A stretch of DNA of 64,000 nt from Humulus lupulus (lineage: Eukaryota; Streptophyta; Magnoliopsida; Rosales; Cannabaceae): NCBI RefSeq assembly GCF_963169125.1, contig NC_084798.1, positions 169,165,980 to 169,229,979 of the forward strand, given 5' to 3'. Both the position numbers and the translations under genes were made by a program. Shown here one piece after another: positions 6,241 to 60,776 of the stretch. Within the stretch, counting starts at the first letter, position 1. Each line of letters begins with the position of its first letter. Below the pieces are notes generated by a model. It saw nothing but the letters and a program-made list of their open reading frames with translations, was not told the DNA's origin and did not search any database.

Positions 6241-7848
6241 GAAAGCATCAATGTGTTTTTTTTTTGCAGAAATGGCCACAAATGTTTTTTTTTTTCACGT
6301 CACTATAAAATTGCTCACTTTTTTATTTTTCCTTACAAATAAATACCTGTTTTTTATAGTAAAATTCTCAAATTGTCATTTTTGAATAGTTTAATTGTTT
6401 CAAACTCACATTTAGAATTTCTATCTTCCAAATTTCTCAATTCTATACTCTCTCGTAATATCTCAAATAAATGTAATTTATTTATTCACACTTTTAAATA
6501 TAAATTATTATTATTCAACTTTTTTCAAAAATTATAGTGAATTTTTCTATATCAATTGATACTAAATTTTTTAAATATAATGTTAAGAAAGTTCAGGATT
6601 TTTTAAAAATAAATTATTGCAAAATAAACTCATTTGTTACAATTTTGTTTAAATAAGGATTTTTTATATATATATATATATATGATTTTTTTAAAAACCA
6701 TTCACGTATATATGGTTTTTTTTAAGTTTTTGTTTAAAATCTGGAAATAAGAATAATTTTTTTTTAAATATGGAAACTTTTCATTCTATAAGTTTAATTT
6801 CCATAGTGCCCTAATAAGAAAATTAACTATACTTTCTATAAATATGGATAAAAAAACAATTAAGAAAAATATGGAAATAGGTGCCTAACAAAAACTACAA
6901 AATATGGGATTCCCAAAACTGAGAAACTAGATTACCACATATTAGTAAATTTGCTCTAAACTGCCGACTACAAGATTCTAACCAAGAAACTAAATTGTTG
7001 ATCACCAAATCTTCCTTATCCAGCTACTGCAACTCGTTTTCCATAGTTTTACAACCATCACATTATCTTCTCCGGTAACAACACACGAAACTCTTCTCCT
7101 CCGATCAAGAATTTAAATTTCCGATCGCCTGCTCTTCTTTTTCTCTGGCCTTCTACAGTCATCGAATTAAACGTAGAATTCAATTTTCGATCACTTGCTC
7201 TTCCTCTCCGGCAACTCAAATAGAATTTGGATTCTTTTTCAACAATCACATCTTCTTCTCTGACAACATCATCTGTTTTTAGCTTCGTTTAAATCAGGAA
7301 AAACACAAATCCATCGACTTTTACGATTTCTCAAACAGGTAATATTTAAACTAAACAAAATCTTCTTTGAAATATACGATGTGGAAAATAATTACACAAA
7401 GAACCAGGAAATTAATTTTTTATTTACTCACATGAAATTACATCACATAATTTGAACATTTGCATAATTCAAATATTACAACAAAAAAAAAGACAAAAAA
7501 TTAAATAATGTAACCAGTTACACACGCAAAATAATAATAATAATAATAATAATTTATCATGAAACATGAAAATTAGATCTTGTTGTATATGTCTTGAACA
7601 TTTACATATTTGAAATATTAAAAAAAAACAAGAAAACACATTCACTAAGTTAACCATTTACACACTCAAAACAAACTGAACATTATGCAAAATAATTAAA
7701 CATAGAACTTGGAAATTAGTTCTTGATTTACTTGAAGGAAACCGATCACATGATATATTTTCAACATTTGTTAATATTCATTCACTAACGTTACATTTGA
7801 ATTAATAAAGCAACAACACTAAAAATTATGTCGTGCTTTATTGCAGAT
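6241..7848. other. AT-rich left end and leader of the MULE; no gene seen
   Basis: The stretch contains long T and A runs and a (TA)n run at about 6663-6683. A C-rich leader-like part at 7000-7330 precedes the transposase start and ends with a donor-like CAGGTAATA near 7340. The first palindromic word of the MULE appears at 7510-7521. I could not find a convincing terminal inverted repeat, so the exact left end is unknown. The short minus-strand frame near 7058-7249 has no family features. Confidence 0.4.
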
Positions 7849-8445
7849 ATGGAATCCATAATGACATTGATCCATTTTGAAGGAAAATTGACAGACAGAT
7901 ATCTATATGATGACTACACCATGACTAGATTGCTAATACCAACAAATTGTTCAGAGAACAATTTGGTTCATTTAGTAAAAAAATGAAATATGCAAAATAT
8001 TGAGCTGAGTTACCAGTTATTGACAGGTATGCCACCAATGAAGTTGCTCACTAAAAACTCATTCCTATTCTACATTGAGTTGAAAAAGAAGCAAAATGCA
8101 GTTACAAAGTTACCACTATACATCACAACTTTTGATGAAACACTAGCTGAAACTATTGAACACAATACATATGAAGAAGAAACACAAATACAAAACACAG
8201 ATATAGAAATGCTAGTTCTTCAACTAAACAACCAGCAATCAGTTCCAGAGTTACAATATGAAGAAGCAACCTCCACGACAAATAACTAGGTACAAACCTT
8301 CCCAAACATTACAGACATAGCTGATAATGTAGCAGATTTTATCATAGAGAGAATAGAAGAAAACAAAAGAAAAAGAGAAGATGGAACTTACTTGAAGACA
8401 TCATGGCTATGGTATTTTAAAAAACTAAAAGAGACATATGGATAA
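7849..8445 (+). pseudogene. MULE transposase N-terminal region, broken
   Basis: A start codon at 7849 follows an acceptor-like TTGCAG. The frame runs to TAA at 8443 with TGA at 7984 and TAG at 8287. The readable protein begins MESIMTLIHFEGKLTDRYLY, and a middle segment reads LLTGMPPMKLLTKNSFLFYI. This resembles the amino-terminal region of plant Mutator-like transposases. The zinc-finger and the first catalytic-Asp parts that should follow are missing, so an internal deletion lies between here and 8635. Confidence 0.65.
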
Positions 8446-8634
8446 AGAGACTGTATTGTTTTCCTTTTTATATTTTTATTCAAACAAACTAAACACATAA
8501 AGGAAACTGTTTAATGATGATTCAGCAATACAATAATAAAATCAGTGTAAAAAATAATAGTCATTTAAATTAATGAAATTGGTTACTTAATTTGGAAACA
8601 ATAACCGATTACATAATCATGATTTTACAAACAG

Positions 8635-9144
8635 GTCTAGCAATCATTTCAGACTGGCATAAAAGCATAGAAAACGTTGTAGACAATGTCTACCCAAAAG
8701 CTTTCCATGGAGCATGTATAGTCCACCTACTAAACAACATCAAAGTGAATTTCGGTGTCCATGGTGAGGACCTAAACATAAACTTTGTGAAGGCAGCAAA
8801 GGCATACAAGGTAAAATCATTTGACCACTACATCCACGAAATAGACAAGATTGACACTCGCATAAGACCGTATTTACAGAGAATTGGATATCACACTTGG
8901 TCTAGATGTCATGCTCCAACAAGAAGATATACAAAGATGACATCAAATATAGAAGAATCAATAAATGCTGCATTGAAAGTTGCAAGAACGCTGTCAATCA
9001 CTACAATGATGGAAGACTTTCAAAGTTTAGTTCAAAAGTGGGTATGGAAAAATGGTAACGAAGTGAATGGAACATTCACACAAGTAACAACAGATGCTGA
9101 ATTGTGCTCAGAGAAAACTTTGTTTGGGCAATTAAATTTCAGGT
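8635..9144 (+). pseudogene. MULE transposase catalytic core, second half
   Basis: The exon starts after TTTACAAACAG and ends at a GTAAC donor at 9145. It contains IISDWHKSIENVV, where family members usually have SDRH (second catalytic Asp kept, Arg changed to Trp). The HGACIVHLLNNIK Cys/His motif follows, then SNIEESINAALKVAR carrying the likely catalytic Glu. This fits the Mutator transposase DDE fold. The part holding the first Asp is absent upstream, so it cannot be active. Confidence 0.85.
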
Positions 9145-9257
9145 AACTAACATATATTCTGCACTAAATATTATTTCCTAAGACATTCGGTAACCAGTTA
9201 CTAATAATTATCACGGTAACCAGTTTCTAACATGTATTCCTCTACTAAAAAAAACAG

Positions 9258-9733
9258 GTCTTCCCACTAAACATTCTACTGTACCAAGTTGTGGTAGAAG
9301 ACAAATGAAATTTTCTGTTCAACCTAATGGAGAAAACATGCGAGTGCAAAAGATTCCAACAAGATGAATACCGTTTGCACATGCAATACCAGTATTTGCA
9401 AAAACACGACTGAAAACATATGATTATGTTGCTGATTACTACAAAACTACAACTATGAAAGCAACATATGAGTCAACTGTTCATCCCTTTCCAAATGAAA
9501 GTGATTGGACACTACTAGAGACTTTACACAAAATTTTCCTACCACCAAAAACAAGAAAACCACCAGGTCGCCCTAGAAGGAAAATAATCAGATCTAGAGG
9601 GGAACCAAAAGTGCAGACTAAATGTGAACGATGCGGGCAACCGAGACACAATAGAAAAACATGTAGGAATGAACCAATCCCAAAGGTGCAAAACCCAAAA
9701 AAAGTCAAAGAAATTAGACAAATAAATTTGTAA
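9258..9733 (+). pseudogene. MULE transposase C-terminus: SWIM and CCHC zinc motifs
   Basis: After an acceptor at 9257 the sequence continues VFPLNILLYQVVVED. A SWIM-type finger follows, CECKRFQQDEY then a PFAHA-like end, with in-frame stops and a frame change near 9370. The open part (9455-9733) carries a basic KPPGRPRRK stretch and the zinc knuckle CERCGQPRHNRKTC, standard at the end of plant MULE transposases. It is the third surviving piece of one transposase gene. Confidence 0.85.
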
Positions 9734-10497
9734 AGACTACACAGACTACACTTTCAATTCATTCAATCGATATAATAAAATTGTATCCTAATGTTTTCCC
9801 AATTATTGAAACTACTGTCTTTTCAGGCATTTAACATTTTATAAACTGGGGACTCAAGTTCCTGGTTACCACACAAGTTATTCAAAGCCGGAGACTCAAG
9901 TTCCTGGCTACCACACACATTAATAATAAAAGCCAGTTACTATAAAAACATGTAACAAACCACTTATAAAAACCAGTTACTTAATCACATATATTTCACA
10001 AAAAAAGATAAATATATTAAAATAATTAAAAAATAATAAAAATACAAAAAATGTAACCAGTTACCTGAAACATCTGGCTTACACTATCAAAAACTGAAGT
10101 AACCGATTACACCATCCTCATACAAACCTATTTTGAAAAAAAATTAACATTTACAAACTAGTTACATAATAAAACATCTCTTACAAATACATTAAAAATT
10201 CATGAATTAAAAATTATTATAATTTAACAAAAAATAATTCAAAAATTAAAAATAAAAATAAAACTGTTCCCAGTTACCTGTAATGTAAGACTGATCATTT
10301 CAAAGACTGCAGTAATCTTTATCCATTAGCACACAAACTTCTCTAAAAATGATTGAAACCTATATGAAAAAAAAAACATATGCATAACAGTAACTTCAAA
10401 CTTTTTTTTAAAAAAATCTCCAACTCTATTGAAAAAAATACACATTAATATAAAAAATAAATAAAAAAAACTTTATATTAAGCCAAAAGGTGAAATG
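9734..10497. other. Central noncoding part of the MULE, left of the nested LTR
   Basis: Very A-rich sequence between the transposase relic and the inserted LTR. It has the densest run of the palindromic word (9861, 9932, 9971, 10053, 10099, 10156, 10268) and a short direct repeat of a GACTCAAGTTCCTGG word (about 9851 and 9892). No coding frame has family features. Confidence 0.6.
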
Positions 10498-12750
10498 TGT
10501 CACGCCCTACTAATCCAGGGTCATTACACTATGTGTTTAAAATTGTGCTTAACTCGTTAAGCGAGTTGTTTAGACTCTAAAGTGTAATTTAAATAACATA
10601 TAGGCCTAGGCAGTAAAATTTTTGGATAAAAAGATTTAACTTTTCATTAAGTCTATAAAAGAGTTTACATGGGATCCCAAAAAATTCTTTAAAAACATAA
10701 TTACAATTGCAGTTTTACAAACAGTCGACCTAAGCGACAAAATTCAGACTTTTACATTGAGTCCCTCAATGAATCTCGATCGTGCACCGCTCCCATGCCC
10801 TCTAACTCATGGTTGATCATCATTCACATTGCCCTTACTTGCACCACAGAGCACCCATGAGCTGAGGCCCAGTAAGAAAACCCCACATGGCATAACAAAT
10901 ATCCAAATAATTATAAGTAATAAACAAAATGCTTCCTAGATAATAAATGAATTCATTCCAAACATACAAATCATAAAAAAATTCACATTAATTTTCCAAC
11001 CAGTATAACGACTCATGCCGAGTAGATGCATATCGCACCCCTATAATGGCCCCGCCACTACGACACACATCACACCCCTGCCACTACGACCTACATTACA
11101 TATGTAGTTTCAATAATGACCTCAAGGCCGATAACGACCTCCCGACCGATCAATAAACAACAACAATCACTCATTACAAGTGTTTATAACAACAGATGCC
11201 GATATAGAGCAAACATTTACTTTAAACAGATTCACAACACATCATACTCATGTTTAATAATCAAGGCGGATCGATCATGATCACAACCAATCAATACAAG
11301 TAGTTATAACAATATAGGTTCATGCAAAGTAAACATTAATTTAAATAGATTCATGACACGGTCATTCTCGTGCCCTACAATTGGGGCGCATGCCTTACAC
11401 TCGGTGCAAGTGTCAGTTTTCTTACCTTAAGTCCTGAGCGATAGGATAAAGCGACAACGAGCACGATCCTCAACTCTCGAGCCTTGCGGTACCACTAGTC
11501 ACAACATATTAACGGATATCCATCAAGAACTAAACCAATTAAGAGCTTTGGGATTGAGTCCTAGCCTTCGGCACCTCGAATTCTACTAAATCGGGAAGTA
11601 GAATCCTGCCCAAGCCATTAGCTTTGAGTCCCCACAACTTAAAACATCATTTGGCCACTTTCCCCAATTAGAGTCGCGGCCCGCCCCTGAAGGGCCGCGA
11701 CACGCCTCTAGGCAGAGAGCCCACAACGCAGCCTACCAAGCATCGCGACGCCAAGGCAGTTCAGGGACCACAACGCCTCTGAGTTCATGTGAGTCGTGAC
11801 GCTCCAAGAACAGCACCTCACGCAACCCCGCAAACTAAGAAATTCCAACAATTTCAGAAACCGCAACTCCTCCCAAATCCACCCCAAACTCGAATTTTTT
11901 AACCCAATTCAACCACACAATCACACCAGCAACACAGAACACACTAAACCACCTTTAAAACTCATTAGGACAACACCAAAATCCAAAAATTCACAAACTC
12001 GTTAGGATCACCCAAAAACAAAAACTAAAAAGCTTAATAAACTGAAGTTCCCAGTCCTCCACAACATCTTAATCCCCAAGTCAAATCACCTCTAGGTTTG
12101 AATTCAAGGCTTCCTTTAATGTATATATGATTTCCTTCTTAAGGCTTCTACTCGACTAAGCTATTCCAAGACTAGGGAAAATACCAAAATACCCATTGCC
12201 CAAACCTTAGCTCTTTAATGCCCTCAAGGGCAAAATGGTCCTTTGCCACCATTTCCCATTAATACTCAAATTTCACCCATAATCCCTAATCAATTCTAAT
12301 AATCCCAAAATACCAATATTTTTCCCAAGTATAACTCATATCCCAATGAGTCTCGATAACTCACCAAATTGCCAAAATATCCCTAGGCTCATCCCGAGCT
12401 GGGTATTAATCCCCTTTGTGACTTTTCTGTAAAATTGCTCATTAGGATCGCCTCGTGCCGAATATCTCAAATATATCCACATAATATTGTGGTCCCACTC
12501 ATAAAGCATATATAATTACAAATATACCCTCAGCGGGTCAAAATTACGAAAATGCCATTTTTTAACAAAAACAGACATATAACCACATTTAATACACTTA
12601 AACATGCATAAGTAGTCATATCATAGTATAACTCATATAGTTCACATAAATAATCACAATTAAATCATATTAATACATAAACATCCAGTTATGCCCTCCT
12701 TGCACAGTAATCAAGGCACTAAGCCTTATTAGCAAATTTGGGACGTTACA
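10498..12750 (-). mobile_element. Nested LTR-like element (probable gypsy solo LTR)
   Basis: The ends are TGTCACGCCC at 10498 and GGACGTTACA at 12750. It is clearly homologous along its length to the solo LTR at 41833-44241; both share a block reading CCGAGCTGGGTAT and a similar start and end. Base composition is far less A-rich than the MULE around it, and it lacks the MULE word. The minus orientation is inferred from a GTAAG donor-like leader readable on that strand. The flanking five bases (AAATG and AAACC) do not match well, so a clean target duplication is not visible. A GC-rich hairpin block lies at 11660-11800. Confidence 0.7.
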
Positions 12751-12908
12751 AAACCAGTTCTTTACATTAACCAACAAACTAAAAAAAAGAAGTACCCACA
12801 AACAACTACAGTACCAAACCAGTATCCAGTTACAAACCACAAATTCACTTTTAAAAAAGAAAAAAAAAGTCAAAGTCATTAATACAACTTAAAAAACTAC
12901 AAATATCT

Positions 12909-13710
12909 CTAGTTATTCTTCTTCTTCCTCTTTGATTTCTTTGACAAACCATCATCTTTTGTCTTGTACCCACCAATCTGCTTCTTTTTCCCATGAGTAT
13001 ACAAGTTAATGGCAAGATAACTGCAAAAGGTAGCTACTTTGGTAGCCATGTTCTTTGGGATGTCATCAATCTTCCCATGGATAAACAAATCAACATACTT
13101 GATAACAAATATTCCACAATCACTGAAAAAAAAAACAAATGTAAATAATAAAAAAAACAACAACATATCACAAAAACTAGTTACTTGTCCTCTTGAGAAG
13201 GCAAGTCTTTGGCAAACCTAAATCAATTGGTTCCTTCTTCCCAATAGAATATGGACCAACATTTAAGTCCAGATCTTTCCTAGAAACATAAAAATCAAGA
13301 AAGTCTAGAAAATATTGTAAAACAACAGAATAAGCATTCACATAGGGCAAAGCAACACTCTCATTCTTCTTCCCCACCAAAGAGTTCTAGATAGTTAACA
13401 TCCTATTATTTATGCAAAAGAGGATGAAAATCCAATGCAAGTGAACCTTCACATGCACCGGAAAAAGAACACGATCTACATCCACCCAAGGAGTGTTACA
13501 AAACAAATATTCACCAATAATATAATATGAAACCAGGTTATCAAAATGAATGCTGCTTGGATTACATTTGGCTGCCAAAAAGTTATCATATAGACCCTTG
13601 ATAGTTCCATCAAACTAGGAGTCTGTAGTTGTAACCCTCTTGTTCAAACTATCACTCTACTTAATCTTCTTCCTCAAGTAATAAAAACAAACATTGATTT
13701 GCTACAAAAA
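12909..13710 (-). pseudogene. Ulp1-like (C48) protease domain of the MULE-borne gene
   Basis: Ulp1/SENP-type proteases cleave SUMO-like tags; plant MULEs of the Kaonashi kind carry such domains. On the minus strand I read FDGTIKGLYDNFLAAKCN, then VDRVLFPVHVKVHLHW with the catalytic His. The DLPSQED oxyanion Gln region follows, then a spliced DCGIFVIKYVDLFI with the catalytic Cys. The intron runs from 13184 down to 13123. The YDSL motif, which should give the catalytic Asp, reads stop-NSL near 13385. A frame change precedes DLPSQ. The C-terminus is Lys-rich (SKKSKRKKKNN). The domain is recognisable but dead. Confidence 0.85.
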
Positions 13711-13892
13711 AAAAAAAAATAACAAACAAAAGTCAGAAACTTGGTTACTTGTCAATTTTTTTTTATGAGAACTAGTTACACACAATACTACAAGAACCTT
13801 GTTACTTGTCGTAACCATTATCAAAAAAATAACTAAACATCTAAACAAACAAAGAAACCTGTTACACAATATTATACAAAGAACCTGGTTAC

Positions 13893-14490
13893 TTACAGTG
13901 TCCATAAGCTCTTCCCCACAAGTTTGAAGCTTGTAAAATCACATCTTCTCATCAATTTTAACAAAATTATAATCCATCGGGGGATTGATAGTGTTATCAA
14001 CATCAGAAAACTTCTTCTTCCTTTAAAAAAAAAAAATCATATTAACAAACATTTACATAACAAAAAAAATATTAAACAAAATAAAAAAAAAACTTACTTG
14101 TTTCTAAAATTCATCTTATCCTCAATCCATGCATTCATCCTTTGAAACATTTTGTCCAATCTCATCTTTAAATGGAAGCAACCCTCTAAAAATCAACACT
14201 TCGTCTACCTTCCTCTTCACATCTTCTTTTACTTCAGATGAACTAAACTCAGTAACAAAAGAAGATTTAACATGAGTACTAGGTTTAGACTCCCTCTTTT
14301 CAATAGCAACAGGAACTTCATCAACATCACCAACCAACCCAACTTTCCAATCATCCTTACTGCTGCTTAATCTCTTTTGTCCTTCTGCATACTCCATAGT
14401 TTTATCAATAACCTTCAAAATCTTTGGATCCAAAAAAATTTGTTCAAAACTTAAACCATCAGAACTGAACTCGGGCTTCTTTGAATTATC
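13893..14490 (-). pseudogene. Linker exons of the DUF1985-Ulp1 gene
   Basis: The exon 14490-14098 is open for 131 codons and bounded by TTATAG and GTAAGT, encoding a charged segment that includes MDPKILKVIDKTMEYAEGQK. The next exon (about 14025-13893) carries a TGA near 13950. Such low-complexity acidic and basic linkers between DUF1985 and the protease are usual in this family. No motif gives a separate function. Confidence 0.6.
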
Positions 14491-14579
14491 CTATAATAAA
14501 GAACAATAAAACCAGTTACAAAAAATTCCCTTTTAAATAAAATAATACAAAGAAAAAAAAATGATTTCAATATCTTAGT

Positions 14580-15382
14580 TCCAGCCACAATATTTGACAA
14601 CTACAACCCAATATAAACACCATCAAAATCTTCACTTAAATCATTCCCAGAACCCTAAACAAAAACAAAAACGAAATTGATTACACAAATAATAGGTTAC
14701 ACTAATAAACTTACATATAACAACATACTGTTATGTAAGAGAAACCAATTACCTTACTATCATCAAAATCTTCACCTAAATCCATCCCACAAGCCTGGAC
14801 AAAAAAAAAAAAAGAATCTGGTTACAACAAACAATGGTTACAAAAAAACAAAAATACATAGAAGAAACCAGTTACCTTAGAATCAAGAGAAACATGGCTA
14901 GAAACTTTATCAAAATCAACCAACTTTTTCACTTCATTAAATCAAGTAGTTTCATCACCAGAACGTCCAACTTTTTATGAATTTTTTTCAACTATACCTC
15001 CAATCATTGCAGACAACTCACAGAGTTTCCCCATGAACTCAGACCTCATATTTGCAATATCATCAATAATAGCTTGTTGGTTCTCTTTTATTGAAGAAAA
15101 TGTTTCACAAATCAATATCAAGTTTTCACTATCAACCTAAACAAACATAATCAAATACATTACAAAACATCAAAAAATAAAAATAACAACAAACCTATAA
15201 ATTTCAAACAAAATAATATATTTTTAAAAAAAATCACCAACACTAACAAGTACCTGGGTACCCGAACCATCATCTCCATTATCAGGACACTCCTTGGGCA
15301 AATATATAGGCTCAAACTTAAAGTTCTTCACTGTCGGTTTCTGCTTCTCCCCAGAATTTTGATAAACATCCAAGATAGTCAA
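14580..15382 (-). pseudogene. Middle exons of the DUF1985-Ulp1 gene
   Basis: The exons inferred from acceptor and donor sites are 15382-15254 (reads KPTVKNFKFEPIYLPKEC), 15136-14876 (a predicted helical stretch including IIDDIANMRSEFMGKL), 14794-14753, and a related small exon near 14656-14580. The last two look like a tandem duplication of exon plus intron with a period of 140 bp. Two in-frame stops occur in the 15136-14876 exon. The donor of 14876 is itself a copy of the palindromic word. Confidence 0.55.
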
Positions 15383-15558
15383 CTATGGAAATAAAAAAAA
15401 TATATAAATACAAACCAAGAAACTGGTTAACATGTTCTGTAATCAGTTACATAAACAAAAATACTAAATGATTCAAACAAATATACATACAATAGCCAGT
15501 TACAAAAAAAATATTATACCTTTTTGCTATTAAAAATCTTTGTCACCAAGTTGGAATA

Positions 15559-16300
15559 TGTTGTACCCCAAAATAAGCATGGACTCAATCATTCAGCTAG
15601 GGGTACAACTGTCAGATAAACACATGGAAAAAGAAAGCGAGTGGAACATCTAGCTAACGTCGATGTGAGCAGCTCGAGTTAATACTTGGAAGTGCGACAT
15701 GTAGATAATCTCCAGATAGCCTTTCAGGATAGTAATCCAGTTCGAGACATGTTATGGCTAGATCGGCTTCAGAATGCTCTGAACCTAATCTGAATTAAAG
15801 TCTGTTCACTCTTCGATCTCCAGCTCGAGGAAGATGTTCTGCTCATGGAAACCTGGTCATGATGCACAGTGAAGGATCCCGAAAGACTTGGAAGTTCCTT
15901 ATATGCTCATTAATGCCTAGGCTGTATTACACATTTATTGCCCGAGATAACGGGAGTATTTTCCATAGGCAATCATATCCCCATGTAAATGTGAGTTATC
16001 TTGATTGATTGTTTACCATATTTATGCACACGGTTACCCAAACCTGTCCAGGGATATCCACTATAAATATCAGGGATAATGGACAGGAAAAAGGACGAAT
16101 TTTTGTGATACAGATGCTCTGCAGCAATTGTAAGAGATTAATAATACTGCCTCATGGACTAGGTGGATTTTAACCACTGAACCACATAAAATTGTGAGTG
16201 TGAGAAGTTGTTCATATAATTCATTACAATTTAGAAAAGAGCACTAATATCTTTGTTATTGGATTTCTTAATCCACTGTTGGCGAAAAACTGTGTCAACA
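15559..16300 (+). mobile_element. Solo LTR, 742 bp, target duplication GAATA
   Basis: The element begins TGTTGTACCCC and ends GTGTCAACA. It is flanked by perfect 5-bp copies GAATA at 15554-15558 and 16301-16305. A TATA box (TATAAATA, 16062-16069) shows plus orientation. No internal coding part is present, so it is a solo LTR left by LTR-LTR recombination. It interrupts the DUF1985 exon of the minus-strand gene. A relative begins at 63761. Confidence 0.92.
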
Positions 16301-16305
16301 GAATA

Positions 16306-17147
16306 AAAAGCATTATTAGAACTCTTTTAATTCAACAAATGGGTTTACTTTTTACCAGCCCTCTGACAAAACTTAGGATGCAAATCGGATATAGTTTCAT
16401 ATATCCACACCATAAAAGCAACAGGAAAACCAAGAAGTTTATAAGGATGAACCCCAACCTTCCCATCAACAAAAAGACCATAAAGTTTTTTATTACTACC
16501 CTTTAAAGCAATTTTCATATAATGAAAAGTCCTATCCCAAACGAACATCCCAAAACCAATACTTCCAAACTTAGACAGATCATGATCAACCATCTCAAAA
16601 AAAAAAAGTCATCAACCAATTTCTCACTATTATATCCATAGAAGTAGTTTCCTAAAATATGAACTATCCCCAACTTCACAACAACATCATCATCTACTAT
16701 CTCCTTACTATTGAAAGCATTACACAATTCTGCCTTTAACACTTTACCACCAAAACGACCAAATATTTTAGGAAACTACTTCTATGGATATAATAGTATT
16801 TTAGGAACTTTCTTTTTTATGAAAAAGACTTAAATCACAAAGACCAAGATAGTTAAGACCTGTAACAAGGGAAAACTCTTCAATAGAAAACCTACAAGCC
16901 CTATGACCCAACTTAAAACCACATCTCCTCATCCCCCCTCTCATAATACACCTTGAAAAAACAGTTGTGCAAGTTGGGTTTGAAAATGAATATCAAAAAC
17001 TTCTAAGAAGTGCCTAAGTGGCGTCTTCTTAAACAATTATTTTTTACTTTTGGTGAACTTAGCTTTCAAGTCTTTAATGACATTCTTGTCATTGAAATGT
17101 TGTACCTTACTTCCAAACCTTTTAGAGGGATTGATCGTTAAATGAGC
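16306..17147 (-). pseudogene. DUF1985 domain exon of the MULE-borne gene
   Basis: DUF1985 is a plant domain found in transposon proteins including, as I recall, the VANC anti-silencing factors of VANDAL elements. The exon starts after TTCTGCAG and reads AHLTINPSKRFGSKV. Further on come PLRHFLEVFDIHFQTQL, then RFSIEEFSLVTGLNYLGLC (the hallmark). KLGIVHILGNYFYGYN and YKLLGFPVAFMVWIYETI follow. It is broken by TAA near 17040, a frame change near 16930, a 35-bp inverted duplication (16626-16660 against 16763-16797) and the solo LTR. Its end continues at 15558-15520 beyond the LTR. Confidence 0.85.
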
Positions 17148-17386
17148 CTGCAGAAGAAACAAACAAACAAATTACACAACATGTAATTAGTTTCATAAAA
17201 TAAATAATTGTAAACTTATCTACCAGTAACCAGTTACACATGTAACCAAAAACAGAGAAACAAAACACTTTAAAAAAATCCCATTGATAATAATAAAACA
17301 AACACAATCCCCCGAATGTGAACCCGGTTACGGTAACATCACCATATGAACATTTTTTTATTAAACTTAAGAAAATAAACACATAC

Positions 17387-17734
17387 CACAACATGCTTCA
17401 TCTCAATAGTATCAACTTTGGCATCCTTACTTCCTGATGCATCAACATTATCCTTCTTATTATCAGTTGCACATGATTTCCTCTTCTGTTTAAAAGTTGA
17501 AGGAGATTTACTCTTCTTCCTTGCAACAGACTTTATAGGAGAAATGTTACTCCTCCGAGGAAGAACTTCACCAATATCATTACCAACATCACCAACCTTC
17601 GAAACATCCCTTACAACTTCAGAAAATTTATTCTCAGAATCAAACACATTCTGAGCAATATTATCAGAACCAGAAGCACCACCAACTTCACCAACTCCAG
17701 CAACAACAACACTAGAGAACTCAGACTGTTCCAT
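17387..17734 (-). CDS. First coding exon of the DUF1985-Ulp1 gene
   Basis: This exon is open for 116 codons from the ATG at 17734 to a GTATGTG donor at 17386. The product begins MEQSEFSSVVVAGVGEVGG and then has a basic, nuclear-signal-like segment (ARKKSKSPSTFKQKRKS). The next exon starts at 17147, and the intron between them carries a perfect GTAACCAGTTAC word at 17226. The start is chosen because it is the first ATG after an AT-rich leader. The whole gene is a pseudogene downstream. Confidence 0.65.
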
Positions 17735-18395
17735 CAGAATTCTTTGAACTTAAAATATAAAATGCACTGCAAAATAAAAAAACAAACAACACAAAAGAAA
17801 ATGAAAAACAGATATATATATATATATATAGAGAGAGAGAGCACAAATTCCAAATAACTACCATAAAATTTCCCAAAAAAACTGATAAAAAACCGCCAAA
17901 ACCCCCACACTAAAAAAATAACCATCAAAACGTTCATAAAAAACAAAAACCAACCATTAACACCTATTCAAAATAAAACCACCTACAATTGGAAAAATCA
18001 ACCACCCACGATCGAAAAATAGATAATCCAAAGCAATATCAACAAAATTAGACCAAAAAAAATAACACCACAAAATCGCGACAAAACCATGAACAAAAAT
18101 GTTACCAAACCCTAAAAAGAAAACAAAAAAGAAGAAACGATTCAGAAAAAAATGACTGAAGCATAGGAGTACGAAGAAATGGTCAAAATATAAAAGCGTG
18201 GTAAGGAAGCAAGCTAGAAAAAATGGAGGCTATAGGTATTCGAGTACCTGCATGGTAGAAATGAAGAGACACACGAAACATGTCTCATTTAAAAAAAAAC
18301 GTTTTCCAATATCTGAAAAGAGAAATAAATGAAAAATATTACTACAATTATTGAAATACCCTCACAAAAATTCAAAATTAGCAAAAATAATCTTA
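17735..18395. other. Right end of the MULE, leader of the minus-strand gene; no other gene
   Basis: A-rich on the plus strand with a (TA)n(GA)n run at 17815-17841. It probably contains the promoter and 5' leader of the DUF1985 gene. I found no clear terminal inverted repeat matching the left side. The copia LTR-like repeat starts at 18396, so the MULE end may be cut here. Confidence 0.4.
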
Positions 18396-19285
18396 TGTTA
18401 GGATTAATGCCCTAAAAGCATATAAATACATTTTATTGAATTAAATAAAAAGAACAATTTTATTATATTTGAATATTATAATTATTGTTTGAATTAATTA
18501 TATGATAATGTCAAGGAAATTCCTTATTAATTCATGAGAATATGATCTTGTATTAGTATGAGAGAATTAAGATAATATATAATAAATAAAATAGTCAGTA
18601 ACATATTAAAGTAAGAAATCTTTAATGAATGGTCACTAGTGTAGTTTACTAAGAATACATGATGCAATTGATCTAGATTCAGATTACCGTTGAGCCCGTG
18701 CCCCTGCGCACCTGTGCCTATGCGCCGCTGGTGTCGTGCCCCTACGCCTGCGCCCCTGCACCCATGCATTGCTGATGTCGCGCCCTTGAGCCGTTGGTGC
18801 TCCGCACCGCTGCACACCCATGTGCCTTGCTCACTACTGCGCCAACCACCATGCAGAGGCCACTTGAGCTCATGAGGCTCTATGTGCCATCGACCCTAAT
18901 GGTCTAGGGCACCAATCTTGGTGTCCAAAGCTAGATCCTAATTTTGTGCAATTAATTTTTTATTTAATTAAATTTTAAATTATTTGAATTTAAAGGTTTA
19001 GTTATCTTAGTTTATTTTTATTAGAAAAATAAAATATCTTTTAGTTGGTTAAGATTTTATCTTAAGTTTAAATAATTATTTGAATTTGATTCTTTAATTA
19101 TTTAAATTCAACTAAATTAAAAAGATCACAACATGGGTATTTAATTAAAATATAGTTTTAATTAAATGAATTAATTTGAAAGTTAGTTTCTAATTCATTA
19201 GTTGGGTGTAACAAATTCCTAAAGATTTGAAAGAAAGTCTAAAAGAGAGGAGAAGCATTCTTGGAGTCTTGAAAACAAGTCAAAG
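18396..19285 (+). repeat. Copia LTR-like repeat, copy A (truncated)
   Basis: It begins TGTTAGGATTAATGCCC, the same start as the LTR at 49958, and stays similar to that LTR for about 300 bp. It then enters a GC-rich block (18690-18890) not present in the 49958 LTR. The remainder matches copy B (22143-23025) with only scattered differences. Homology stops at CAAAG at 19285, where unrelated DNA starts. Confidence 0.8.
18690..18890. repeat. GC-rich block with repeated TGCGCC words inside an AT-rich LTR
   Basis: This segment is rich in CGCCCCTGCGC-like words and CpG, in a repeat that is otherwise strongly AT-rich. It recurs at 22425-22635 in copy B, where an extra CTACGCCTGCGCACC-type unit is present. 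The related LTR at 49958 lacks it, so it was gained or replaced as a unit. Confidence 0.7.
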
Positions 19286-35788: not shown

Positions 35789-37880
35789 TGTAGTGTCCCT
35801 GAATTTGTACTTAGCTAGATAGTAGTAGTAGTTAGTAGTAGTTTGTAGTATGTTAGATTCTGTGGATTTTGGTTTAAGCCGGGACTTAGTTGGAAACTCA
35901 TAGCAACAGTTATGGATTTTATAAGTTTAACCTATATTTTAGAAATATTAATTATAACATAAGGTTTGAGTAATATTGCTGGTTCTAGAAATATTATTAA
36001 TTATAACCTAAGGTTTAGATAGAATTAATAAGAGCATGACACTTGTCTTAATTATGTTTATTAAGGATTTAAGTATTTTTGATGAATAGTTTAAATAAAA
36101 GAAAGATCTAGAAGCTATAGAACCTTCCAGAAACTGTTAGGATCACATTAAGACTCAGTCAAAGCTGTTTTATCAATTCAAAATATGTTGAAAAAGTGAA
36201 AATACGTGTTTGATATATCAACGTATGCCGATATATCACAGCTATAGGGGCCGATATATCGCCTACGGAAGATACGGAAAACACGTCGACTTCGCACGAA
36301 CTATCGAACGGGGCTCGGGAAAATGGTCTAGGCGATATATCGCCCAAGGTAGGCGATATATCGTCCCTGGTGCATCATTTTTGAATCTTGAGGATTTTTA
36401 AATTTAAAAACAACCTTAACCACTTGGACCTGCCTTTGAATGATTTTGACCGAGTTCTGGGCATCTGTTGAACAAAAAATCAAATCTTTTTAATTTTATA
36501 TTCATTTATTTATTCAAATTAAAAGGGATTAGCTTCACTCCTTGAACTCTATAAAATAGGACCTAGTACTAAGCCATTTTCTTCATTCTTCAAGCATTTG
36601 TTCAAAGCCTCCAAGTTGCTAAGATTTCTATAGAGAGAAACACTTGGGTTTTAGGTTAAAAGCTTTATCAATCTAAGCTTTTCTAAACACTTGGGAAGTG
36701 AGATATAGTGAGATTTTGGTATCGAGGTTTAGATCAAGTCATAAGATCATTCAAGATATTCTTATCCTTAAGTTCAGATCTTCATGGTTCTTTAGTTTTC
36801 TTTTATTTTCTTTCAGAACCTAACTCTTGTTTATGATTCTTGGTTAGGTGTTTAAGTTTCTTGAAAACTTAAGGTTTTTCTCGGTAAGTGTCTTCTTTGA
36901 TGATTTAGTACTCTTTTTCATCTCCTTTCTTTAGAAATACTCATGGTTTGTGCTGTTGGTTTTTAGGAGTTTTCTAATTCCGTTCTTGTTCTCAAATATC
37001 CCGGTTTGTGGTAAGGAAAATAGGATAGATTATATGTGTTTATATGTTTATGTTATGATATGTTTTATGCTATAATATGTGTATGTATAAATATGTTTTA
37101 TAGTCCTTGGGCATACAACTTGTTTAGATAACAAGCCCCAAGAATATGTTTTATAGTTGCTTGGGCATATGACTTGCTTAGATAGCGATCCCCAAGAATT
37201 TTTATCGTTTTCATGGTTTAGAGTTATGATTTACCTTACCTCGATTAGTAGACAGAGGACATAGATGGGTTATCATATACTACCATGTGATCTAACCTAC
37301 CTCGATTAGTAGACAAAGGACCTAGATGGTTTATCACATGCCATGTTAATGAGTTAATGGCCATTAATATTGTAGTCCTATATGATATATGTTTTTATAG
37401 TCATATGTTTTATAATATATGTTTATGATATAGTCTTATGTTTATAATTCATGATATATGTTGTTAGTAGATTTTCCTTGTTGGGCATTAGGCTCACTCC
37501 TTTATTTTTTTAGCTTGATGTAGGAAAATGAATATGGAGGCGGAAAGATTCTTGGCAGCTTGGCTTGTGTGTTGAGGATGAATTGATTGAATGGATTACG
37601 TGGCGATCGAGGATGACGTTGTTTTTAAGTCTTTTTATTTATTTCCGCACTTAGTTTTTAAACAATTGATTTAAGTTATGTTTTATGTTTTTTTTTTATG
37701 TATTAAACAATGGGTACCCATACCGTATTTTATATTTCATATTTTACTTTGTATTTTGCACAATATTTATTTTGGGGTATTAAATAAAGTTATGTTATTT
37801 CTTATGTATGTTTCCTAAAATAGTAGCTATGTCTAGTAGTTTTAATGGTCTGAGGTCTTAGAAATAGTCGGGGCATTACA
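35789..37880 (+). repeat. 5' LTR of gypsy 2 (2.09 kb)
   Basis: It begins TGTAGTGTCCC and ends GGGGCATTACA just before the primer-binding site. A TATA box TATAAAATA lies at 36550-36558. The overlapping part of the 3' LTR (45322-46956) differs by about 30 substitutions counted by eye over 1.6 kb, so the insertion is fairly young. A target duplication AGTGT (35784-35788 and 46957-46961) flanks the whole element. Confidence 0.95.
36217..36367. repeat. Cluster of GGCGATATATCGCC palindromes in the gypsy 2 LTR
   Basis: CGATATATCG-type palindromes occur at about 36230, 36251, 36333 and 36354, and a weaker TGATATATCA near 36215. They lie some 200-330 bp upstream of the TATA box. The 3' LTR repeats three of them (about 45332, 45411, 45432). 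The density is well above what surrounding sequence shows. Confidence 0.85.
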
Positions 37881-45321: not shown

Positions 45322-46956
45322 CGAGGGGCCGATATATCGCCTACGGATTATACGGAAAACACGTCGACTTCGCACGAACGATCGAACGGGGCTCGGGAAA
45401 ATGGTCTAGGCGATATATCGCCCAAGGTAGGCGATATATCGTCCCTGGTGCATCATTTTTGAATCTTGAGGATTTTTAAATTTAAAAACAACCTTAACCA
45501 CTTGGACCTGCCTTTGAATGATTTTGATCGAGTTCTGGACATCTGTTGAACGAAAATTCAAATCTTTTTAATTTTATATTCATTTGTTTATTCAAATTAA
45601 AAGGGATTAGCTTCACTCCTTGAACTCTATAAAATAGGACCTAGTACTCAGCCATTTTCTTCATTCTTCAAGCATTTGTTCAAAGCCTCCAAGTTGCTAA
45701 GATTTCTATAGAGAGAAACACTTGGGTTTTAGGTTAAAAGCTTTATCAATATAAGCTTTTCTAAACACTTGGGAAGTGAGATATAGTGAGATTTTGGTAT
45801 CGAGGTTTAGATCAAGTCATAAGATCATTCAAGGTATTCTTATCCTTAAGTTCAGATCTTCATGGTTCTTTAGTTTTCTTTTATTTTCTTTCAGAACCTA
45901 ACTCTTGTTTATGATTCTTGGTTAGGTGTTTAAGTTTCTTGAAAACTTAAGGTTCTTCTCGGTAAGTTTCTTCTTTGATGATTTAGTACTCTTTTTCATC
46001 TCCTTTCTTTAGAAATACTCATGGTTTGTGCTATTGGTTTTTAGGAGTTTTCTAATTCCGTTCTTGTTCTCAAATATCCCGGTTTGTGGTAAGGAAAATA
46101 GGATAGATTATATGTGCTTATATGTTTATGTTATGATATGTTTTATGCTATAATATGTGTATGTATAAATATGTTTTATAGTCCTTGGGCATACGACTTG
46201 TTTAGATAACAAGCCCCAAGAATATGTTTTATAGTTGCTTGGGCATATGACTTGCTTAGATAGCGATCCTCAAGAATTTTTATCGTTTTCATGGTTTAGA
46301 GTTATGATTTACCCTACCTCGATTAGTAGACAGAGGACATAGATGGGTTATCATATACTACCATGTGATCTAACCTACCTCGATTAGTAGACAAAGGACC
46401 TAGATGGTTTATCACATGCCATGTTAATGAGTTAATGGCCATTAATATTGTAGTCCTATATGATATATGTTTTTATAGTCATATATTTTATAATATATGT
46501 TTATGATATAGTCTTATGTTTATAATTCATGATATATGTTGTTAGTAGATTTTCCTTGCTGGGCATTAGGCTCACTCCTTTATTTTTTTAGCTTGATGTA
46601 GGAAAATGAATATGGAGGCGGAAAGATTCTTGGCAGCTTGGCTTGTGTGTTGAGGATGAATTGATTGAATGGATTGCGTGGCGATCGAGGATGACGTTGT
46701 TTTTAAGTCTTTTTATTTATTTCCGCACTTAGTTTTTAAACAATTGATTTAAGTTATGTTTTAGGTTTTTTTTATGTATTAAACAATGGGTACCCATACT
46801 GTATTTTATATTTCATATTTTACTTTGTATTTTCCACAATTTTTATTTTGGGGTATTAAATAAAGTTATGTTATTTCTTATGTATGTTTCCCAAAATAGT
46901 AGCTATGTCTAGTAGTTTTAATGGTCCGAGGTCTTAGAAATAGTCAGGGCATTGCA
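45322..46956 (+). repeat. 3' LTR of gypsy 2, left 455 bp missing
   Basis: It aligns to 36245-37880 of the 5' LTR from GGGGCCGATATATCGCC to the end, GGGCATTGCA. It is followed by the target duplication AGTGT. It retains the TATA box (45628-45636) and three ATATAT palindromes. Confidence 0.95.
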
Positions 46957-58700: not shown

Positions 58701-58795
58701 AATTGGCGCCGTCTGTGGGAAGAATTCACTCTCTAGGAACATCATTAAGTCAAGAAAATTCCCAAACAATCAAGATTCACTCGAACACAAAATCC

Positions 58796-59068
58796 ATGCC
58801 ACCCAAGAACAATGGAGCACCAGGTCCAGTCATCCAGATCGCCTTCGCAACGGATGTCGGCGATCAAATTGATAGGATTTGTCGACTACTGGAAGCCAGT
58901 CAGCAAAGATCTGATGAAGCTATCAAGACACTGATCGAAGCTCAGGCCAGGCTAGAAGCTGAGATCGCCGAATTGCAAAGAACAAACGAAGCAACACAGA
59001 GGACCAGATCAATGGACAATCATTTAAACACAACGTATTTACACGAAAGAAGGGAAAGAACAAAGTAA
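58796..59068 (+). CDS. Short gag-like ORF, copy 1
   Basis: The ORF is 90 codons, beginning MPPKNNGAPGPVIQIAFATD, with a probable coiled coil (LIEAQARLEAEIAELQ) and a basic end (HERRERTK). It starts about 95 bp after the primer-binding site, the usual place for gag. It is truncated compared with any full gag and lacks capsid and zinc motifs. Copy 2 at 60504-60776 is the same length, so the truncation predates the tandem duplication. Confidence 0.6.
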   Translation: MPPKNNGAPGPVIQIAFATDVGDQIDRICRLLEASQQRSDEAIKTLIEAQARLEAEIAELQRTNEATQRTRSMDNHLNTTYLHERRERTK

Positions 59069-60408: not shown

Positions 60409-60503
60409 AATTGGCGCCATCTGTGGGAAGAATTTCCTCTCTAGCAACATCGTTAAGTCAAGAAACTTCCCAAATAATCAAGATTCACTCGAACACGAAA
60501 GCC

Positions 60504-60776
60504 ATGCCACCCAAAAACAACGGAGCACCAGGTCCAGTCGTCCAGATCGCCCGCGCAATGGATGTCGGTGATCAAATCAACAGGATGTGTCGACTACTGG
60601 AAGCCAGTCAGCAAAGTTCTAATGAAGCTATCAAGACACTGACCGAAGCTCAGGCCAGGCTAGAAGCTGAGATCGCCGAATTGCAAAGAACAAACGAAGA
60701 AACACAGAGGACCAGATCAATGGACAATCCTTTAAACGCAACATATTTACACGAAAGAAGGGAAAGAACAAAGTAA
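60504..60776 (+). CDS. Short gag-like ORF, copy 2
   Basis: This 90-codon frame is nearly the same as 58796-59068: MPPKNNGAPGPVVQIARAMD at the start and the same coiled segment with LTEAQARLEAEIAELQ. The open frame survives in both copies. It is too short for a complete gag; I do not assign more. Confidence 0.6.
   Translation: MPPKNNGAPGPVVQIARAMDVGDQINRMCRLLEASQQSSNEAIKTLTEAQARLEAEIAELQRTNEETQRTRSMDNPLNATYLHERRERTK

Follow-up and report, generated by a model that had tools for sequence, protein, structure and literature searches.

A near-palindromic word repeated in hop MULEs is the probable target site of a VANC-type protein from the same lineage

Results

A word is repeated in the noncoding DNA of a decayed MULE

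We analysed a 64-kb stretch of the hop (Humulus lupulus) genome (contig NC_084798.1, positions 169,165,980 to 169,229,979; hereafter the window), which holds a decayed copy of a Mutator-like element (MULE) with a broken DUF1985-type gene. The noncoding DNA of this element repeats the near-palindromic 12-mer GTAACCAGTTAC, and sequence comparisons suggest that a VANC-type anti-silencing protein from the same MULE lineage probably targets this word. Exact copies of GTAACCAGTTAC occur four times (Table 1), where 0.01 was expected from 100 dinucleotide shuffles. Allowing one mismatch, GTAACNNGTTAC gave 12 matches in the window against 1.39 expected (largest shuffle 5), and 10 of the 12 fall within 7510-17237. 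Up to two mismatches from GTAACCAGTTAC, the window holds 29 distinct sites: 23 in the element (span 6920-18350, boundaries set by eye), none in its two insertions and 6 elsewhere. Only 2 of the 23 lie in coding blocks, which were also drawn by eye. A sequence-only reading of this DNA had claimed four perfect 12-mers, some 20-30 close variants or half-sites and a concentration in MULE noncoding DNA that spares the insertions, and the counts bear this out. When k-mers of the element, stripped of both insertions (8,424 b), were ranked without bias, CCAGTTAC was the top 8-mer after an A/T run, with 11 occurrences against 0.185 expected and none in the remaining 55,576 b of the window.

The same reading had named tandem duplications and splice donors as possible causes of the enrichment. 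After copies with like flanks were removed, 25 of the 54 sites in the window element and three related copies (L042, L043 and L044) remained, as did 31 of the 40 sites in a second set formed by the intact relative L039 and four further places (L001, L003, L005 and L008). The flanks of the remaining sites held little information in both sets. In the second set the word was preceded by G in 19 of 31 sites and followed by C in 20 of 31, which extends it towards GGTAACCAGTTACC. Few word sites overlap likely splice donors, as judged by eye. Neither cause removes the enrichment.

A scan for the palindrome GTAAC-N2-GTTAC returned 17 matches in group I, to which the window copy belongs, against 0.032, and 10 in L039 against 0.007, the copies being non-independent. 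The word centre in the window is mostly CA, in constant orientation, and CCAGTTAC was found 11 times forward and GTAACTGG not at all. With copies this one-sided, the word does not serve as a perfectly symmetric palindrome. A clear near-palindrome is particular to the word of the window family, as compared with the words of clades A and B described below. The earlier proposal that its symmetric arms are read by a dimer has only weak support, given that those other words are mostly one-sided and that the CA centre has one orientation in the window.

The word is shared with intact relatives and apparent short elements

We searched the hop genome (2.48 Gb, 121 contigs) and found 12,586 exact copies of the word (6,241 + 6,345), against 168 + 160 for the word read backwards. 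The first 100 places listed, all on one contig (C1), form 35 clusters at a 10-kb gap. At least two words occur in 25 of these clusters, 20 of which have them within 600 b. Eight loci fetched from this listing represent four distinct places. Three of them (L003, L005 and L008) have the last ~200 b of L039 in common at 69-71% identity, with words within ~900 b of the L039-like end. The fourth, L001, is linked more weakly, through ~230 b close to the right-hand end of L043, a copy of group I (79%). From the 3 kb viewed at each, these four places appear to be short nonautonomous elements.

A genome search with the transposase exon, in which 150 of 3,911 candidates were scored, returned mainly matches of ~71-82% and of 57-60% identity. 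Three loci of the latter class (L039, L040 and L041) are ~99.3% identical over 9.5-9.7 kb, which points to recent movement of their family. The likeness stops near position 9690 of L039, and the flanks beyond are unrelated. The exons of L039 are long and open, with DBD_Tnp_Mut, MULE and SWIM domains on one strand. The opposite strand encodes DUF1985 (PF09331, E 7e-18) and, downstream on the same strand, the Ulp1 domain Peptidase_C48 (PF02902, E 4e-11), the two being read here as one putative gene. The genome has intact relatives of the dead window copy, and the claim that the element carries a DUF1985-type gene holds for both.

Both MULE groups with the DUF1985/Ulp1 gene hold the word at high density, and it is missing from the rest of the DNA compared. 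Alignment of L039 with group I at E 1e-10 is limited to blocks on the transposase exons; L040 and L041 additionally align with L043 over ~200 b of the DUF1985 open reading frame (ORF). L039 contains 16 sites at up to one mismatch, 15 of them outside the aligned blocks and 15 outside long ORFs. Six lie at 151-570, upstream of the transposase on the plus strand, and further sites occupy the presumed introns of that gene; the presumed introns of the second gene and the central spacer also hold words. Two lineages have thus kept one word although their noncoding DNA can no longer be aligned.

Further DUF1985 families have words of their own, which follow the protein tree

A genome search for DUF1985 gave 3,972 candidates, of which 150 were scored and the top 30 (L045-L074), together with L075 and L076, were read. 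CCAGTTAC was found in none of these 32 loci. Instead, GGTTGCT occurs 170 times in clade A (17 loci, 57.8 kb; 6.0 in shuffles), GGTTGCA 94 times in clade B (9 loci, 30.7 kb; 5.0 in shuffles) and GGTCGCA 23 times in the single locus L076 (3.4 kb; 0.1 in shuffles). Off the diagonal the numbers were low and the excess small: GGTTGCT numbered 10 against 3.4 in clade B and 2 against 0.5 in the window element, GGTTGCA 3 against 1.2 in L039 and 12 against 7.5 in clade A. Most words lie outside ORFs of at least 120 aa (159/170 in clade A, 84/94 in clade B, 22/23 in L076). Their orientation is that of the DUF1985 gene in 156 of 170 cases in clade A and 90 of 94 in clade B, but in only 10 of 23 in L076. 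One DUF1985 match in this search (G000:C8:188618436-188618888) sits within a 1,922-aa open frame, far longer than the others listed.

Since copies within a clade are related, a per-locus ranking after removal of like-flank copies weighs more. Set against 15 control tiles (2.8-8.0), the best 7-mer of clade A loci scored 6.4-12.8, above 8.0 in 14 of 17, and that of L076 scored 8.5. In clade B the own word scored 3.5-8.7 in the 7 of 9 loci where it ranked first, three of them above 8.0. Some candidates were rejected: CTCCTAG in L074 is part of a ~24-b repeat, and the word ranked first in L060 sits in an apparent further insertion. Palindrome scans of clades A and B were topped by other words, probably from conserved coding copies, and the contexts there showed the one-sided GGTTGCT and GGTTGCA; a palindromic reading of these two words was rejected. 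Tandem word arrays occur in L058 and L076. L076 carries GGTCGCA in both orientations, with GCGAC-N7-GTCGC five times inside the array; within its dense part (735-1150), where forward and reverse words mix, the spacing is often 10 or 12 b, whereas the words of the window family are dispersed.

We then compared words and proteins in a DUF1985 tree of 45 rows, ten of them without a known word. The window copy and L044 were too fragmentary for inclusion, so that the GTAACCAGTTAC label rests on three rows. Every word with several rows occupies one side of a branch (100/99), and the labels change 4 times, which is the minimum, whereas shuffles gave 16.2. Clade A is joined with clade B (100/99), and a single base separates the words of the two. 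L075 and L076 are on long branches. The words track the tree, and by eye GGTTAC, GGTTGCT, GGTTGCA and GGTCGCA look like variants of one half-site theme. In both a structure model and a profile of DUF1985, the sole clear PDB match was VANC21, solved with its target DNA.

Features of the window

The features of the element and its words are collected in Table 1. Four pieces of its DUF1985 region match a profile named A2 (E 1.2e-20 to 9.5e-08), the last passing 16303 into the insertion. The C-terminal transposase exon sits in a block common to L042-L044, which aligns in turn with L039 2947-3316. Comparison of the window flanks revealed no long terminal inverted repeat (the best match was 19 b, E 0.026), and in group III no left end was seen. 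The broken DUF1985 gene contains an inverted repeat of 35 b without mismatches (16626-16660 and 16763-16797, 102 b apart) that resembles a template-switch trace.

Elsewhere in the window, the palindrome GGCGATATATCGCC occurs once, with two near forms, in each of 36257-36352 and 45335-45430, like stretches 9.1 kb apart that are perhaps the two long terminal repeats of one element; it recurs in L060 (3239-3338). Two very similar 121-aa ORFs, noted by eye, lie 1.7 kb apart at 58703-59068 and 60411-60776.

Table 1. Features of the window element and positions of its words
Feature	Position	Strand	Basis
Decayed MULE copy (group I)	7247..18396		homology to L042, L043, L044 (BLAST) covers at least this span
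Exact GTAACCAGTTAC, upstream of transposase	7510..7521	+	exact match
MULE transposase exon	8577..9143	+	PF10551, E 4.1e-06 (ORF 8592-9146)
Exact GTAACCAGTTAC, presumed transposase intron (~9143-9258, by eye)	9190..9201	+	exact match
One-mismatch word, same presumed intron (~9143-9258)	9216..9227	+	search at up to one mismatch
C-terminal transposase exon, possible zinc knuckle	9368..9730	+	weak zf-CCHC_2, E 0.51, below cut-off
Exact GTAACCAGTTAC, spacer separating two genes	10053..10064	+	exact match
One-mismatch GTAACNNGTTAC, spacer	10099..10110	+	search at up to one mismatch
First insertion, word-free	10496..12750		alignment break; missing from L042, L043, L044
One-mismatch word, spacer	12822..12833	+	search at up to one mismatch
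Broken Ulp1 (Peptidase_C48) region of DUF1985 gene	12912..13614	-	PF02902 fragment 12912-13217, E 0.0044, under its cut-off; remainder by eye
One-mismatch GTAACNNGTTAC, presumed intron of DUF1985/Ulp1 gene	13854..13865	+	search at up to one mismatch
One-mismatch word overlapping likely splice donor (by eye) of minus-strand gene	14864..14875	+	search at up to one mismatch
One-mismatch word, presumed intron	15439..15450	+	search at up to one mismatch
Second insertion, word-free	15553..16302		alignment break; missing from L042, L043, L044
Broken DUF1985 (VANC-type DNA-binding) region, pieces in two frames	16303..17147	-	PF09331 fragment, E 0.0029
Exact GTAACCAGTTAC, presumed intron	17226..17237	+	exact match
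Presumed N-terminal exon of minus-strand gene	17339..17734	-	no Pfam match

Discussion

The arrangement described here resembles known systems. VANC21 binds YAGTATTAY in Arabidopsis, whereas the action of VANC6 coincides with a high density of AGTTGTCC/AGTTGTAC; the noncoding DNA contains repeats of both words, and each protein causes methylation loss in its own family (Hosaka 2017, PMC5735166). A figure legend of the same paper shows VANC with DUF1985 and DUF287. According to a 2026 review (PMC13317346), the Ulp1-carrying VANC genes of non-TIR (lacking terminal inverted repeats) MULEs, named KIU (Kaonashi), act likewise and recognise motifs in their own kind. For such genes in eudicots the review cites Sasaki 2022 (EMBO J 41:e110070), and it names Ulp1-carrying MULEs for grapevine, melon and rice. 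In KIU-type MULEs the terminal inverted repeats are described as degenerate or lacking (PMC10398659).

The hop MULEs share with VANDAL21 and VANDAL6 an encoded DUF1985 protein, here with a model that matches VANC21, a short word repeated in the family's own noncoding DNA, and related families with different words. They differ in that the hop words are neither YAGTATTAY nor AGTTGTCC/AGTTGTAC, are mostly dispersed rather than set in VANDAL-like tandem units, and go with Ulp1. With KIU they share DUF1985 and Ulp1 in a MULE with no long terminal inverted repeat seen, the host being hop rather than Arabidopsis and the words different. The grapevine, melon and rice MULEs also have Ulp1 sequence, and target words go unmentioned for them in the available part of PMC13317346. 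YAGTATTAY itself was found 14 times against 2.4 expected in clade A, which may reflect one inherited site, and not once in the window element, L042-L044 or L039. Among the matches listed in full-text literature, neither GTAACCAGTTAC nor its complement appeared. No such anti-silencing system in hop appeared by title or abstract start among the matches listed for VANC, Ulp1, MULE and hop, a search to which most subscription papers are outside scope. By sequence, the hop family fits the KIU/VANC kind.

On the reading that we consider probable, the DUF1985 domain of the DUF1985 and Ulp1 protein would bind the GTAACCAGTTAC copies in introns, promoter side and spacer of autonomous copies, and likewise the GTAACCAGTTAC arrays in nonautonomous-looking relatives. 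Binding would mark word-bearing copies for loss of DNA methylation, by which the MULE family would escape host silencing while other transposons remain silent. Related families would have their own words read by their own DUF1985 proteins. The sequence-only reading had proposed a VANC-like factor, and the word density, the gene, the VANC21 match and the tree support that candidate. These features, together with the restriction of the word within the DNA compared, are observed, whereas binding and demethylation, like a role for Ulp1, are inferred.

Several results weigh against this reading. Linkage by itself does not show whether DUF1985 or the transposase reads the word. In a cruder 7-mer tile test with like-flank copies removed, the window element (5.3 and 4.8) and the L039 pieces (6.4 and 5.9) stayed within the control range; both are marked out by the longer word and not by their best 7-mer. 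In group I the identity of the word is 0.861 and that of its flanks 0.770 (129 non-independent directed comparisons), a gap that could stem from having picked near-intact words. The tree fit is inflated by near-copies within clades; 6 of the 32 DUF1985 loci lack an evident word of their own (L064, L072, L073, L074, L075 and, despite its place in clade B, L063), and in L060 and L070, both of clade B, another word ranks first after like-flank removal. The VANC21 and VANC6 words are both absent from the window element, and a Pfam scan of eight L039 ORFs, to the exclusion of short exons, gave no DUF287 match at E up to 1. Helical periodicity is a feature of Arabidopsis VANC targets, and the abstract of Sasaki 2022 reportedly deals with DUF1985, DUF287 and Ulp1 domains and with motif sequence, density and helical periodicity. 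In hop, adjacent distances on C1 seemed piled at 43, 53 and 74, and with unique distances no 10-11 b signal was left (R 0.17, whereas jittering gave a mean of 0.23 and reached this value in 79% of trials).

The word could also be a transposase binding site, a subterminal repeat needed for excision and hence kept in nonautonomous copies, as the DBD_Tnp_Mut domain of the L039 transposase and the words close to the shared ends of L003, L005 and L008 would allow. We regard this as unlikely: the L039 words extend into presumed introns of both genes and the central spacer, the protein matched by the DUF1985 fold was solved together with its target DNA, and the words follow the DUF1985 tree, though no transposase tree for the other families was set beside it. 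It is very unlikely that a host transcription factor was recruited and the DUF1985 gene is incidental. The word does contain CAGTTA and GTTAC, which we take to be MYB-type and GT-type cores, but a single host factor is not expected to yield four words arranged by clade for four DUF1985 groups in one host.

Neutral amplification of a word without a reader, through local duplication and transposition, would agree with the tandem arrays in L058 and L076 and with a group I word identity that, in view of how the sites were picked, does not clearly exceed chance. The unlike-flank sites left after duplicate removal and the persistence of the word in two lineages with non-alignable noncoding DNA make it highly improbable. 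An RNA-level element, or a splice-donor by-product in introns of the minus-strand gene, has hardly any probability: the words mostly follow the DUF1985-gene sense (L076 apart) and a few overlap likely donors, yet L039 has them upstream of its plus-strand transposase and in that gene's presumed introns, and they recur at places whose match to the family is confined to one end.

With the target-site reading preferred, hop adds several new candidate protein-word pairs; their kind, VANC/KIU, is already known. Hop offers four such candidate pairs in one genome, GGTCGCA coming from a single locus. Two of them are neighbours in the DUF1985 tree with words one base apart, while the experimental VANC work cited, in its available parts, is on Arabidopsis. 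Because VANC21 has been solved on DNA and neighbouring hop pairs are at hand, the choice of bases by DUF1985 residues is directly testable. The exact copies show how far a word has spread in a 2.5-Gb crop genome. We tentatively picture hop as possibly housing several anti-silencing systems that work side by side and blind to one another, each made up of a DUF1985 protein and its own word, in which the half-site variants and the tree would form a readable recognition code; the near-palindromic 12-mer of one lineage, possibly read by a dimer, would then stand at more than 12,000 sites, many in short parasites of the autonomous element. If binding is confirmed, such words could steer demethylation to chosen places.

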